From positions 372,001-436,000 of the forward strand of contig OX639992.1 of NCBI GenBank assembly GCA_951828515.1: DNA of 64,000 nt, in the 5' to 3' direction. The first letter of the stretch is position 1, and each line of letters starts with the position of its first letter. The notes beneath the pieces were generated by a model, which had not been told where the DNA came from, made no database searches, and was given only the letters and a program-made list of their open reading frames with translations. Origin of the DNA: an uncultured Poribacteria bacterium (lineage in GTDB: Bacteria > Poribacteria > WGA-4E > WGA-3G). A program made the translations under genes and the position numbers. This document shows, piece after piece, positions 9,762 through 52,391 of the stretch.

Positions 9762-10299
9762 TGAACGCACCATTTATATATTTCACACCCTTCTCACCAT
9801 ACTGTTTGTCTACAGCAGTTTGGTAGGGTGTGAAAAATTGGTTTGGGAAGACAGTCTCGACTCGCCGAGCCAACTCGGTCTGGCAGTCGTAGACGCACTG
9901 AATCGAAAAGATATTGAGCAGTTGGATCGTCTACGTGTGCAGCGCGAGGCGTATCTCGATTGGATTTGGTCCGCGTTCCCCGCAAGCCGTCCGCCGAACA
10001 ATTTTCCGGGCGACTTTGCATGGTCGAATCTAAATAAGAAATGTAACCTTGGTATGAAAAAGTGGATTGCTCAGTTCGGAGGTCATAATCTGAAGTTCGT
10101 TGACATCCGTTTCGATCGACCCGCGGAGACTTATGAAGGCTTCCGACTTTTGCGTGGAACCGTCTTGACGTTCCAAAACGTCGCTGGCGAAAAACGGGAA
10201 TTGGAGATTCTCGGCTCGGTAGTTGTTAAAAACGGTAAATATAAGTTACTGAGTTGTCAAGTACCCCCCGCTAAAGCAGGGGGCTTGTTAGAGTGTTAG
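9748..10299 (+). CDS. Small lipoprotein, C-terminus replaced by IS605-type sequence
   Basis: A 183-residue lipoprotein of unknown function. The start is a GTG with AGGATGG upstream; translation overlaps the preceding lipoprotein by 14 bp, suggesting coupling. The signal peptide ends in SSLVGC (Cys near 28). Residues 40-170 look like a compact alpha+beta domain (NTF2-like folds have similar size), not recognised further. The last 12 codons (VPPAKAGGLLEC) are read from the end hairpin of the IS element. If the IS is removed just after TGTCAA, the frame would continue as FPIRKL and stop, so the native protein was probably of almost equal length and may still function. Confidence 0.75.
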   Translation: MRGSNERTIYIFHTLLTILFVYSSLVGCEKLVWEDSLDSPSQLGLAVVDALNRKDIEQLDRLRVQREAYLDWIWSAFPASRPPNNFPGDFAWSNLNKKCNLGMKKWIAQFGGHNLKFVDIRFDRPAETYEGFRLLRGTVLTFQNVAGEKRELEILGSVVVKNGKYKLLSCQVPPAKAGGLLEC

Positions 10300-10420
10300 C
10301 TCCAACAAGCCAGTTGTAACAACTGATTTCTCGTTTCACAGAGGATGGTATCCCATACCTCTCCACGAAGGGCGCAAGCCGCCCTGTGTAAGATATTCAA
10401 AGCCGCGTTGTGGTCGCGGT
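10262..10420 (-). ncRNA. Predicted omega-RNA (reRNA) of the TnpB element
   Basis: In TnpB systems the guide RNA is read from the 3' part of tnpB through the right end of the element, with the guide taken from flanking DNA. Here that would run on the minus strand through the end of tnpB and the hairpin at 10264-10283. The guide would then begin at about 10261, reading into the lipoprotein gene (ACTTGACAACTCAGTAACTT or close to it). Only the hairpin and position are visible; length and the 5' end are inferred. Confidence 0.4.
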
Positions 10421-11516
10421 CGAGTTTCAACCCACAGAACTGACAATGGAACACACGCTCAGACAACTTCAGTTTAATAGGCGATTTCTGGCAGCAGTGC
10501 GAACAGGTTTGACTCGTATGGTGCGGTGGCACTTGATGGAAATGTTTGCCATCGCGCTTTGCGACCCAACTGCACCAGTCAAAGAACGTACCCCAAGACG
10601 CGTCAGAAATAGACTTCGCAAGGTGTCGGTTCTTGACCATATTGCTGGGCTTGAGTTTCTCGGCAACAACGGCATCAAACCCTTTGTGGTGAAAAAGTTT
10701 GTAAGCCGTTTTCGCGATAAAATCAAGACGTTGACAGGCAACAATATCTGCCTGTTTCGCCAATGCGTCCTTTGCCTTATACCAGCGTTTACTTCGGTAG
10801 TGCTTGCGCGAAAGGTCGCGATGCAAGCGTATCAACTTCTGTTCAGCTTGGCGATAAAAGCGTGGGTTGCCCTCTTTTCTCCCTTCGGAGGTCGTCAGAA
10901 AATCGTGTGTTCCAACATCTATACCACAAGCAGACTTTGGAACACATTTCAGTGTGTCCGGCACTTCACAGACGATAAAGCAATACCAGCCGCGGGCCGT
11001 CTTTTTCAACGTGACCTCTTTCGGGTCTCCGACGATTCGACGGTGTTGGCGGATTTTGACTTCACCGAGTTTCGGTACTTTCAAGCCGTTATACCGAGTG
11101 CCTGTGGAGCGGATAGGATTCTGACGGACACGTTCACCCGTCTTGAGTTTGTGTTTTCGCAAGTTCCACGTCAGCGAGCGAACAGAACGCTTGAACTTCG
11201 GATACCCCTTTTTCTCCGCATTCTCTCGACATCGGCGTTGGAAATGCTCATGCGCGGCGTTAACGCGTTTGATCGTAGACACCTGCATATCTTGCGAATG
11301 CTCAGAATAGTGAGAGGTCGTGGCGCGGAGTGTTTTCAGATGGTTAATCTGGTCATACATCGACACAGACTTACGACCATAGTCCCACATCTGCGAACGC
11401 ATCTGGAGCATGTAGTTCTGCAACTGCTTTTGATGGCGCAACTCCGAAAAAAGCCAACGTTCTTCTGTTTTCGTAGGCTTCGCACGGAACTTGAATGTCA
11501 TTTTCATGATTTTCAC
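10296..11516 (-). CDS. tnpB: TnpB RNA-guided endonuclease (OrfB, IS605 family)
   Basis: A 406-residue ancestor-type relative of Cas12 that uses an RNA from the end of its own element to cut DNA. All catalytic positions look intact: RuvC-I Asp in GIDVG (D200), RuvC-II Glu in VVAEKL (E286), a four-Cys zinc ribbon (C338, C341, C358, C361) and RuvC-III DRDHNAALNI (near 366-375). The N-terminal helix-turn-helix region begins MTFKFRAKPTKTEE. Length is normal, so the enzyme may be active. Biological roles known for the family are retention of the element at its donor site and occasional domestication. No tnpA accompanies it. Confidence 0.95.
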   Translation of the reverse strand: MKIMKMTFKFRAKPTKTEERWLFSELRHQKQLQNYMLQMRSQMWDYGRKSVSMYDQINHLKTLRATTSHYSEHSQDMQVSTIKRVNAAHEHFQRRCRENAEKKGYPKFKRSVRSLTWNLRKHKLKTGERVRQNPIRSTGTRYNGLKVPKLGEVKIRQHRRIVGDPKEVTLKKTARGWYCFIVCEVPDTLKCVPKSACGIDVGTHDFLTTSEGRKEGNPRFYRQAEQKLIRLHRDLSRKHYRSKRWYKAKDALAKQADIVACQRLDFIAKTAYKLFHHKGFDAVVAEKLKPSNMVKNRHLAKSISDASWGTFFDWCSWVAKRDGKHFHQVPPHHTSQTCSHCCQKSPIKLKLSERVFHCQFCGLKLDRDHNAALNILHRAACALRGEVWDTILCETRNQLLQLACWS

Positions 11517-11788
11517 GTATCACGCCTTTAACCCCTTCATAGTGGGTAGGCAGACACGTTACCAAGTGGTAACGCTATGAATGTCTGCCAACGTGATACA
11601 TCTATTAAACCATATTTTACTGAGAATGTCAAGTGTTTTTTCAAAAAAACGCTGTGGCCTCACACACGAGGGCGGATTTTCCTCCCCCCGCTAAAGCGTG
11701 GGGGTTTCCAATCCGTAAACTTTGATGAAGATTAATTACCGACATAGCACACCTGCGGGGTGCTGAAAGGAAACAGGAGTAGAAGAAT

Positions 11789-48799: not shown

Positions 48800-50761
48800 A
48801 TGAACACGTCAAAACGGTTCGATACTTACTTAAACCCGACGAGCAAATCTGTTGGCATATCCTCGCGGGCAGTTCTCATTGGGCTCGTCTGTGCCGCCGG
48901 GGAATGTCTGATTGCGCCTTACAATGATTACGTGATTCGCAATGTCTTTCTCGCTGGCGGTCATTTTCCTGTCGGTCCATTTTTTGTCCTGACCCTCCTG
49001 GTGCTGATTGGCAACCGCATCTTGAGCGCAGTTTCTCCCAAACTCGCGCTGTCGGCGGGTGAATTGGTGACGATCTGGTGTATCATGGCAGCCGCCTCCG
49101 GCATTCCTTCGACAGGCATGATGAGATATGCGTTTCGCCCGCTTGTCGCCTACCAGTATTTTGCAACACCCGAAAATGATTGGGAAGCACTTTTCCATCA
49201 ATATATTCCCGACTGGCGCGTTGTTCGTAATGAGAATGCTATCAAATCCTTTTATGAAGGCATCTCTTCGGGTGAATCCATCCCCTGGGGGGCATGGCTG
49301 ATACCTCTATTCGCTTGGACACTTTACGTGTTTGTCCTCTACTTCGTTGTGATATGCCTCTCGGTGCTGCTGCGCAGACAATGGGTCGAGATTGAGCGGT
49401 GCAGCTTTCCGCTGGTTGTGTTGCCTGTGGAGATGGCAAACACCCCGCCGGGAGCGAGAAATTCACTCTTCAGGAACAAAGCATTATGGGTCGGATTTGC
49501 CGTTCCGCTATGCATTCACACGTTGAACGGTCTTCATGCGTTCTTCCCTGGCGTGCCGGAATTTCCCGTCCGATTCAATCCCCATCCCTACTTAATTGAA
49601 AAGCCTTGGAGTGCACTGAGACCTTTGCAACTCAACTTGTATTGTTCGATAGTGGGGTTCAGCTATTTACTGCCGCTTGAGGTGTCGTTTAGCCTGTGGT
49701 TTTTCTTTCTATTCTTCAAACTCCAATGTCTTATCGGCTCGATGCTCAATTTCCAAATCACCAAAGGTCCAGGCGTGCAGTGGAACGCGTATTCGTTCAG
49801 CGCTTCTCAGGAAATCGGTGCGTGCCTCACTTTTGTCATCTACACCCTTTTCAAAGCACGGCATCACATCAGAAGCATGCTTGTCAGTGCCTTTCGCAAA
49901 AGCGATGACGCAAACGAGGCGATGCCCTCTGGTTTGACAATTATTGGTCTCGTCGGCGGGATATTGCTGCTGGCGTTTGCAAATCATCTGATGGGAATGT
50001 CGTTAGGATTCGCACTGCTTTTTGTGCTGGTGCTTTTAGGAATTTACATTGTCTTGACATGGCAAGTCATCCACGGCGGAATTCCTTTTGTCAATCCTTC
50101 GTATTCAGCGCATTACGTTCTCTTTACCACGCTGGGTTCGGCGAGAATCAATCCTTCAACCATGACATCGCTGTTTATGCATCCGGTCTCTCTAACGCGC
50201 GACTTGAGGGAGATTATGATGCCGTATGTGGCAAACGGTCTCAAGGCGGCCGATGAAGTCAAGGTCAGACGGAGGGGGCTGTTAATAGGTATGGGCGCGG
50301 CGATGGTTATCGGAACCCTTGTCTCATATTATTCCGTCCTCGAGGTCAGCTATGCACATCGTGCGCCGTACACAGGTGGGGCGGGCGACATGCGGTGGCT
50401 GACTTCTGTGCTCGTTAGCGCCGATACCGGGACGGACTGGACGAACACAGGTTTTATGGTCGGAGGCAGCCTTTTCATGGGGCTATTGATGTGGCTGAGA
50501 AGGGTTTTCGTGTGGTGGCCGCTTCATCCAATCGGGTATACAATGCTGAGTTCTTGGGCCTCATTAAAGCTGTGGCCCTCAATCTTTATAGGCTGGATGA
50601 TAAAGTATACTCTCGTCAGGTACGGGGGATTGAGAATGTATCGAGGTGCGAGGCCGATATTCCTTGGGCTTGTGCTTGGCGAGATGATCTGCGCTGGCAT
50701 CTGGGCACTTGTTGGAATGGCAACGGGTGTCAGCACGGGTTATCGAATCTTGCTTAGTTGA
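48800..50761 (+). CDS. Polytopic membrane protein of the DUF6785/DUF6784 type
   Basis: A 653-residue protein with about 14 membrane helices. The opening FLAGGHFPVGPFFVLTLLVL, then LSAGELVTIWCIMAAASGIP, GSARINPSTMTSLFMHPVSL, PYVANGLKAADE and a helix-rich end match the DUF6785/6784 layout, which is distantly like OPT transporters. Such genes are numerous in Planctomycetes and Poribacteria. It ends the co-directional cluster that began at 42565. Function is unknown; oligopeptide or small-solute transport is a guess from the fold. Confidence 0.72.
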   Translation: MNTSKRFDTYLNPTSKSVGISSRAVLIGLVCAAGECLIAPYNDYVIRNVFLAGGHFPVGPFFVLTLLVLIGNRILSAVSPKLALSAGELVTIWCIMAAASGIPSTGMMRYAFRPLVAYQYFATPENDWEALFHQYIPDWRVVRNENAIKSFYEGISSGESIPWGAWLIPLFAWTLYVFVLYFVVICLSVLLRRQWVEIERCSFPLVVLPVEMANTPPGARNSLFRNKALWVGFAVPLCIHTLNGLHAFFPGVPEFPVRFNPHPYLIEKPWSALRPLQLNLYCSIVGFSYLLPLEVSFSLWFFFLFFKLQCLIGSMLNFQITKGPGVQWNAYSFSASQEIGACLTFVIYTLFKARHHIRSMLVSAFRKSDDANEAMPSGLTIIGLVGGILLLAFANHLMGMSLGFALLFVLVLLGIYIVLTWQVIHGGIPFVNPSYSAHYVLFTTLGSARINPSTMTSLFMHPVSLTRDLREIMMPYVANGLKAADEVKVRRRGLLIGMGAAMVIGTLVSYYSVLEVSYAHRAPYTGGAGDMRWLTSVLVSADTGTDWTNTGFMVGGSLFMGLLMWLRRVFVWWPLHPIGYTMLSSWASLKLWPSIFIGWMIKYTLVRYGGLRMYRGARPIFLGLVLGEMICAGIWALVGMATGVSTGYRILLS

Positions 50762-50794
50762 ATTGTAGGGGCGTATATGGTATGATAGAATGTG

Positions 50795-50965
50795 ATACTA
50801 CCCAACGCCTAAAGGCGTGGGAGACTTCGGTTTCATAGCGACTGCGGTTTTCTCAGAGAGTCCACCGTCTGACTGTCGCTCCACCCGCAGGCTATTATTC
50901 CGTCTCCGCCACACTCACGAAGTTGTGATCGAACGGACCTGATCGCGCATTGTTACGCGGGTACC
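50795..50965 (-). ncRNA. Orphan IS605/omega-RNA-like remnant without tnpB
   Basis: Read on the minus strand, the sequence has the features of an IS200/IS605 right end and guide RNA: CGGAGACGGAATAATAGCCT, GCGGGTGGAGCGACAGTC, GACTCTCTGAGAAAACCGC, GTCGCTATGAAACCGAAGTC, and finally the hairpin CCCACGCCTTTAGGCGTTGGG (50801-50821 on the plus strand). No tnpB or tnpA ORF is present on either side: the DUF6785-like gene ends 34 bp before it and DUF4159 starts 83 bp after it. The hairpin differs from that of the intact element at 10262-11706, so it comes from another IS family member. Confidence 0.6.
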
Positions 50966-51047
50966 CCAGCCTGAAAAATGTTGATAGCAGCGTTTTTTGG
51001 TGTTATTTGGGCTTGTATTTTAACGAACCGCAAGGTAAATAAAAAAA

Positions 51048-52391
51048 ATGAAACAGAGACGTTTCCACGCAGTTATTGCTTCAATCGGGTTGCATCTACT
51101 CTTTGTCATAATTGCGGCGTTGCTGTTTTCAGGACAACAGGAACTGAACAAAGATGCCTTCGAGGCAACAATCGTTACGCTGAATCCTGCAAGGACGGAT
51201 GTAGAAATCCGACCGACCCAACGTGCTGTCTCGAACACCCCCCTTTTAAGAGAAACTTCCACGGTTCACATACCGACACAAACGTCTCAGATGAGCCAAC
51301 TTTCGAGAAGCGAAACGGGGGTTGTGCGACAAGCACCATCGTTAGACATCGAAACGGATATGCTGAATCCGACAGAACTTTCGGTGGCACCCACGCTGCC
51401 GAATAGTCGTCAGTCGTCAGTCGTCAGTCGTCAGTTAAGCGGTTTTGTTAAACCAGAGTCCTCTTTAACTGATAGACAACTGAAAACTGATAACTATTCA
51501 ACAAGGCGTCGGGGAACCGGCACAACTCAAACAGGACTCTCGGAATTTCTGGATGGATCCTTACCGACTGGCGGTTTGGGAGACGGGTTTGATACTGCGT
51601 TTCGGAATCTTGTGAAGATACCGAAAGAGAAACTGGGGGGTATCCTTGAAGGAACGGGGACCGAGATTCGCGGGCATATTCGATTGATTCGACTTAAACA
51701 TTCGTTGTCGGATTGGTGGCAGGATCCGACGGCTATTCCTGCGCTCATCAAATGGTTAGAGGAACAGACCCCAATTCGGGCGGATATGGATTTCGCTGGC
51801 GGCGCGCTACGGCTCACCGAGCCCCAGATTATGGACGCTCCGCTCATCATTATGACAGGACACGATAAAGATATTACCGTCGGACGCGGGCTTGCGAAAG
51901 ATGGTCCCCTGCAGACAGGTTTCACACCATCAGAACGCGCGGCACTTCGGAAATATATCGTTGAAAAAGGCGGGATGCTGTTTTTCGATGACTGCGGTTT
52001 CAACGGACTTTTCGCACACATTGTCGCCGATGAACTCCAACAGATTTTTCCAGAATACCCACTCGATATTCTTCCGCATGAGCATGAGTTGTATAGTATC
52101 CATTACAATCTGCTGAAACCCCCCACAGGCGGTGATGTGTTCTGGGGAAACGAAAATAATGCACAACCGACGCAGTTCCGTTATCAGAAAGGGATTATCA
52201 TTGACGACCGGTTGGCAGTGGTCTACAATCGCAAGGATTATATGTGCGCGATGGAAACAGCGGAGATCGAGAGCCGCACGATGTTACGACTCCGCCGTTC
52301 TACAGATGTCTATCGATTTATGTCGAATCTACTGATTTATGCGCTGAAATATGGTGGGAATACGGATAGGACAGGCTATAAGGATTTTTAA
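51048..52391 (+). CDS. DUF4159 domain protein with N-terminal membrane anchor
   Basis: A 447-residue protein: a membrane anchor near 9-30 (IASIGLHLLFVIIAALLFSG, similar to the TonB anchor), a low-complexity linker (30-175), then DUF4159 from about 200 to 440 (RLIRLKHSLSDWWQDPTA, MTGHDKDITV, LRKYIVEKGGMLFFDDCGFN). DUF4159 has a class-I glutamine-amidotransferase-like fold, often with MoxR/DUF58 genes, none of which is present here. Within the linker, residues about 120-152 are encoded by a GTCAGC-type genomic repeat. The start is preceded by CCGCAAGGTAAATAAAAAAA. Confidence 0.87.
   Translation: MKQRRFHAVIASIGLHLLFVIIAALLFSGQQELNKDAFEATIVTLNPARTDVEIRPTQRAVSNTPLLRETSTVHIPTQTSQMSQLSRSETGVVRQAPSLDIETDMLNPTELSVAPTLPNSRQSSVVSRQLSGFVKPESSLTDRQLKTDNYSTRRRGTGTTQTGLSEFLDGSLPTGGLGDGFDTAFRNLVKIPKEKLGGILEGTGTEIRGHIRLIRLKHSLSDWWQDPTAIPALIKWLEEQTPIRADMDFAGGALRLTEPQIMDAPLIIMTGHDKDITVGRGLAKDGPLQTGFTPSERAALRKYIVEKGGMLFFDDCGFNGLFAHIVADELQQIFPEYPLDILPHEHELYSIHYNLLKPPTGGDVFWGNENNAQPTQFRYQKGIIIDDRLAVVYNRKDYMCAMETAEIESRTMLRLRRSTDVYRFMSNLLIYALKYGGNTDRTGYKDF
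51407..51500 (+). repeat. Dispersed GTCAGC-type repeat inside a coding region
   Basis: The segment CGTCAGTCGTCAGTCGTCAG continues with TCAGTCGTCAGTTAAGCG, and after a gap with CTCTTTAACTGATAGACAAC and TGAAAACTGATAAC. It uses the same words as the intergenic repeats (compare 4038-4070, ACCCTCTTTAACTGATGGC). In the DUF4159 frame it reads SRQSSVVSRQLSG and SSLTDRQLKTDNYS with no stop, so it has been accommodated as protein linker. Confidence 0.85.

Follow-up and report, generated by a model that had tools for sequence, protein, structure and literature searches.

The minus strand of the window (the whole stretch of 64,000 nucleotides analysed here, G000:C1:372001-436000 of the single-contig 5.85 Mb genome of a Candidatus Poribacteria) carries a real and complete omega-RNA (wRNA) scaffold of IS200/IS605 type together with its RE hairpin. 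These belong to a 5'-truncated remnant of an IS1341-type (tnpB-only) element at 50792-50994 (minus strand), which consists of the 3' end of tnpB, the wRNA scaffold and the RE. Very probably this copy is a recent and most likely silent insertion sequence remnant without selected function, in which a complete wRNA end was left. The locus itself is an ordinary product of decay, yet it shows clearly how an element inserted at a TAM and was later truncated at its 5' end while the guide RNA was spared.

Anatomy of the remnant and neighbouring genes

The remnant was compared with the full element L002. The match starts at codons NAAINI..., spans the tnpB stop codon and the wRNA, and ends in TATCAC, the RE 3' end that the window copy (L001) has in common with most copies; homology stops at AAACGCTGC. 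The wRNA scaffold, guide excluded, occupies 50792-50980 (minus strand) and was matched by our covariance model R1 at G000:C1:422792-422980 with 161.2 bits (E 8e-38). The RE terminal hairpin, CCCACGCC-TTTA-GGCGTTGGG, lies at 50801-50821 (minus strand) and forms helix 9 of the structure, with nine pairs, four of them changed on both sides. The R1 score, the covariation and the homologous RE copies all bear out the initial annotation, which had read blocks and a terminal hairpin typical of IS200/IS605 guide RNAs on this strand; its limits for the locus, 50795-50965, proved too narrow for both scaffold and remnant.

The last 13 codons of tnpB and its stop codon (50953-50994, minus strand) overlap the wRNA, and the frame ends as it does in L002, L003 and L004. 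Nothing else of tnpB is left and tnpA is absent, so that the earlier description of the locus as having neither gene holds for tnpA and for a functional tnpB but overlooks these codons. The LE is also absent, and the sequence upstream of the remnant, as read on the minus strand, is native leader of the DUF4159 gene. No TldR-like ORF (TnpB-like, with inactive RuvC) was found at the locus, and a search of the window against Rfam returned nothing at gathering level, including no group I intron.

Upstream of the remnant lies a DUF6785/DUF6784 gene (48800-50761, plus strand) and downstream the DUF4159 gene (51048-52391, plus strand), the leader of which was altered by insertion and deletion. The predicted guide, host flanking sequence beyond the RE, covers 50776-50791 on the minus strand if it is 16 nt long and reaches 50772 if it is 20 nt, lengths taken from work on ISDra2 (PMC8612924). 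It does begin beyond the RE on the minus strand, as had been proposed, but falls within the 30 bp that separate the RE from the DUF6785 stop codon (50761) and therefore outside the gene in whose 3' end region it had been placed. A promoter-like stretch facing the DUF4159 gene, TTGAAT-17-TATGAT (50758-50786, plus strand; 9/12 consensus letters), has its -10 covered by the predicted guide. The TTGAAT motif is also present in the relatives G012 and G001, there with TATAAT.

Copies of the wRNA and their nucleases

The structure of the wRNA is strongly conserved across genomic copies. An alignment of 38 copies (A1) supports 36 pairs, 15 of which show compensatory double changes. Standard pairs were formed in 97.3% of 1358 pair cells, compared to a mean of 86.8% in shuffled alignments, and the covariation score was 0.307 versus 0.120, with 0 of 500 shuffles as high. 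Controls in which the register was slid were 34-47% paired; as A1 is a sequence-based alignment from which the structure itself was taken, these controls somewhat favour the structure. A1 represents 38 of the 47 wRNA copies prepared from the own genome and relatives (L109 was not among the 47), leaving out other subtypes or cut copies (L012, L013, L111, L112, L114, L115 and L120) and truncated ones (L113 and L117). The window copy keeps 35 of the 36 pairs, the one lost being that at the outer end of stem 1 (columns 7-101 of the alignment), and shows one private stem change relative to close copies. Because the scaffold is almost undecayed, the wRNA by itself gives no grounds for assuming that function was lost, and the copy may be young.

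Of the 26 rows returned by a DNA search of the own genome with the window locus, 19 were wRNA/RE copies; the others were short or doubtful. R1, which was built from the copies, gave 30 matches in the same genome (24 at E < 1e-8), and the covariance search that the initial annotation had suggested thus returned strong matches. By the coordinates of the TnpB matches, a full tnpB of 371-391 codons accompanies 15 of the 24 strong wRNAs and a broken one accompanies three (L003, L005 and L007); the remaining six, namely the window copy, L006, L013, L014, L018 and L019, have none. Truncation at the 5' end recurs as a mode of decay in L003 and L005. When named genomes were searched for exact matches to the wRNA core, all 50 stretches recovered were from Candidatus Poribacteria, which indicates that the subfamily belongs to this group.

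Over about 190 bp, the window wRNA is 95.2% identical to that of L002 and 94.2% identical to that of L004. Both are complete elements, with LE, promoter, leader, tnpB and RE but no tnpA, and the search for full-length elements with the same end, also proposed earlier, was therefore successful. Their TnpBs match OrfB_IS605 and TNB, and the L002 protein aligns to the ISDra2 TnpB chains 8bf8/8ex9/8exa (E 2e-47). The aligned RuvC triad D/E/D is kept in both proteins, and also in the TnpB at 10296; apart from D191, we take these aligned residues to be catalytic. D191 of ISDra2 TnpB is itself named as catalytic (PMC8612924). Judged by these comparisons, the cognate nucleases for the window wRNA are encoded elsewhere in the genome, by L002 and L004.

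The intact TnpB within the window (10296-11516, minus strand) had been put forward as a possible driver in trans. Comparison of both TnpB and wRNA places it in another subfamily: it is 31% identical to the L002 TnpB, and its wRNA is different and not among the 30 R1 matches in the genome. We therefore rejected it as the partner of the window wRNA. Contig C1 of the own genome has 48 TnpB (PF07282) matches versus six Y1 TnpA matches, five of them above the cut-off, and none of the latter adjoin the wRNA copies studied.

Insertion site, guide targets and deletion

An empty site was identified in the near relative G012 (L065), in which the DUF6785 region is 95% identical to that of the window. Read on the minus strand, this site shows TTAC followed by the guide sequence, and its promoter-like stretch runs directly into the native leader. 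The empty sites in G012:C208 and G001:C55 both consist of TTAC plus guide, with 0 mismatches to a degenerate pattern, and both retain the native leader missing from the window. Among 43 copies given, TTA[CT] stands on the LE side in 29 of the 29 with an LE hairpin recognised by regular expression (14 were unrecognised). The TTAC at the empty sites, taken with the TTA[CT] at recognised LEs, indicates that the element entered at TTAC; like other members it sits 3' of the TAM/target motif. The junction in the own genome reads TCAC, the RE end, where the empty sites have TTAC.

Guide targets were sought in the own genome with up to three mismatches. The only match was the junction of the copy itself, with no TAM-flanked target and no second site that the guide might regulate. 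Across 36 genomes searched, TTAC-flanked matches occurred in G012 and G001 only, and a further match in G004, with three mismatches, lacks the exact TAM. The target search proposed in the initial annotation thus succeeded in relatives but not in the own genome, and the only TAM-flanked targets found for the guide are the empty alleles of relatives. No wRNA was present at any of the 29 orthologous loci of relatives, a count that covers the relatives for which the locus was retrieved and leaves out orthologs listed without a locus.

The window copy has lost the LE, nearly all of tnpB and some 90 bp of the native leader to a deletion. TTT is common to both sides of the deletion junction, and the deletion probably took place at this microhomology. 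The distance from the -10 to the ATG of the DUF4159 gene is 269 nt in the window versus about 160 nt in G012. Between the promoter and the DUF6785 gene, G012 has about 320 bp that are absent from the window (50755-50766); there is a 9-base overlap at the junction of this difference.

Origin of the remnant and alternative explanations

We propose that a tnpB-only IS1341-type element inserted just 3' of TTAC, at what would be the start of the transcribed leader of the DUF4159 gene, with transposase presumably supplied in trans. While the element was intact, its TnpB and wRNA would have used the first 16-20 nt past the RE as a guide and cut empty TTAC sites whenever these were re-formed, which would have favoured retention of the element; cutting of empty sites with this effect is an established TnpB mechanism. 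The loss of the LE, of tnpB up to the last 13 codons and of the native leader sequence would then be the result of a later single deletion. What it would have left is an immobile remnant with a nearly perfect wRNA, antisense within the DUF4159 mRNA leader and lacking its own promoter, and for these last two reasons the remnant is most likely silent, with no selected function. No minus-strand promoter was detected when 50600-51400 was scanned for sigma-70-like sites. If read-through transcription did produce the window wRNA, a TnpB of the L002/L004 type could load it, and the known TAM-flanked targets would be only the empty alleles in relatives. The possibility of a decayed insertion sequence end, which the initial annotation had itself named as an objection, thus largely applies, although the structure is nonetheless strongly conserved among copies.

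The same features may be read as a functional orphan guide RNA that, once transcribed, serves a cognate TnpB in trans, either to cut empty alleles that enter by recombination or to repress the DUF4159 promoter. Scaffold and RE are intact, the cognate TnpBs keep their RuvC residues, and perfect TAM-flanked targets exist in G012 and G001. The predicted position of the guide over the promoter -10 would suit a regulatory guide, but it follows automatically from the insertion point, and as TCAC replaces TTAC at the own site, the own promoter is not TAM-flanked. With the LE missing there is also no mobility to protect; moreover, the minus-strand scan was negative and the copy occurs in one genome only. 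We therefore regard this explanation, the one raised by the initial annotation, as improbable for the window copy, which lacks a TAM-flanked target in its own genome. Stronger support for guide RNAs that act in trans comes from the tnpB-less copies L006, L013, L014, L018 and L019, which are the better candidates.

Still less weight can be given to a role in cis, in which the remnant was co-opted as a leader of the DUF4159 mRNA and the strand antisense to the wRNA folds in the 5' UTR. The remnant does lie between promoter and start codon, adding about 109 nt, but it is found in a single genome and at none of the 29 relatives' loci, and the terminator-like site on the plus strand (50971-51000) is within chance, two such sites being found versus 0.9 expected. 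A chance hairpin with low-complexity similarity, unrelated to any insertion sequence, would agree with the absence of an Rfam match and with the fold of the single sequence, the stability of which was not significant (z -0.59). This explanation is refuted by the 95% identity to full elements over about 190 bp and the strong covariation. Recent decay of a transposable element thus remains the preferred account.

Comparison with known systems

The window locus represents a known kind of element in a decayed state. Core-deleted IS605 derivatives and ORF-less IStrons are already in print. Standalone wRNAs of IscB are known in Ktedonobacter, and recent work on IStron guide RNAs exists. Unlike ISDra2, whose TAM is TTGAT, the window copy has neither tnpB nor LE, its TAM is TTAY and its scaffold has no Rfam match. 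It resembles the ISDra2 TnpB-reRNA system, as outlined in PMC8612924, in that the wRNA spans the tnpB 3' end and the RE, the guide is drawn from flanking sequence past the RE, and the TAM is on the LE side. The parent elements L002 and L004, with tnpB flanked by LE and RE, are built like IS1341-type elements (PMC9956272), of which the window copy represents the 3' end only.

The PATEs of Haloquadratum are described as transposase-free IS605 derivatives with the core deleted (PMC3119063). They hold both ends, whereas of the two only the RE is present in the window copy, which so does not qualify as a PATE or MITE. IStrons combine a transposon with a structured RNA, and ORF-less variants of BcISt1 are described (PMC4227781); in contrast to these, no group I intron was found by Rfam in the window or in 10 element loci. 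The overlap of guide and promoter recalls TldR, the TnpB-derived RNA-guided repressors (PMC13418256), but the window locus is without a TldR-like ORF.

Elements without tnpB and their leader RNA

Five of the 24 strong wRNAs of the own genome (L006, L013, L014, L018 and L019) are tnpB-less elements with a promoter-bearing left side. Among the six strong wRNAs without tnpB, the window copy alone has neither LE nor promoter, and it is not itself an RNA-only element. A clear LE hairpin is present in L006, L014, L018 and L013, while L019 keeps the promoter and has an indistinct LE hairpin. Both ends are kept in L006, L014 and L018, in which a structured RNA replaces the gene. In such elements (L014, L018 and L019 at C1:5069048, 1127470 and 3151613 of the own genome; the weaker L006 and L013; L155-L184 in relatives), a TTGACA-17-TATAAT-like promoter and a leader RNA with a pseudoknot are accompanied by a second structured domain (D2) and by a complete wRNA and the RE. 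The RNA domain covaries strongly in three of the five elements of the own genome and in relatives.

In copies of the L014 type, promoter and wRNA are separated by a 180-nt RNA. By DNA search this RNA was present in 12 of 40 genomes, including the own, and a full wRNA stood right behind it in 29 of 30 fetched loci. In a 24-copy alignment (A2), a pseudoknotted structure, written by eye from the same sequences as were tested, was paired in 99.4% of 839 cells, and the pseudoknot helix in 100%. Double changes were seen in 23 of 35 pairs, and the covariation score was 0.522 versus 0.179, with 0 of 500 shuffles as high. A2 comprises 24 of the 29 wRNA-bearing loci and leaves out duplicates (L168, L176, L178 and L179) and a broken leader (L172). 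With a second covariance model (R2), 48 matches reached 100 bits or more; they came from 18 of the 72 genomes searched within the order, 17 belonging to the genus and one to the family. L006 has a weaker relative of the 180-nt RNA (R2, 52 bits), and L013 had no R2 match at E 0.1. Rfam returned only one implausible snoRNA match (E 0.5) in 10 element loci, with nothing plausible even at E 1, and a group I intron or other known RNA family was therefore rejected; an HDV-like or twister-like leader was set aside by eye, on comparison with the architectures of those RNAs.

A descriptor search covering 30 of the 48 TnpB loci (L027-L056) found a leader with a nested hairpin and pseudoknot upstream of 20 of these 30, one of the positives (L035) being out of register, versus 1 of 30 shuffles. 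This tnpB leader architecture spans different subfamilies, including that of the window TnpB (about 11520-11610, minus strand), and Rfam matched nothing in those of the loci that were scanned. In named Poribacteria records, 18 of 52 wRNAs lacked the tnpB C-terminus motif. Inspection by eye, the last step, showed two to be cut by the end of the locus, four to have tnpB sequence missed by the motif, two to be ambiguous and 10 to be tnpB-less with a related upstream domain. Our literature search, which was open-access and incomplete, returned no report of tnpB-less wRNA elements with structured RNA cargo.

We consider it quite possible, if somewhat short of probable, that the element family of this lineage includes RNA-only mobile guide-RNA genes, with a strong promoter and no ORF, that use TnpA and TnpB in trans and parasitise the OMEGA nucleases of their relatives. 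The leader shared with tnpB mRNAs would then be a common regulatory or processing signal, and the window copy one more source of guide in a multi-copy, trans-acting pool. The tnpB-less elements make it testable whether the family can spread by guide RNA and conserved leader RNA alone, with the nucleases and transposases of other copies. One further locus of the own genome, L243 (C1:1423813-1423956), combines a leader-like RNA (R2, 50.7 bits) and a promoter-like stretch with no recognised wRNA behind them, and is perhaps a decayed copy.
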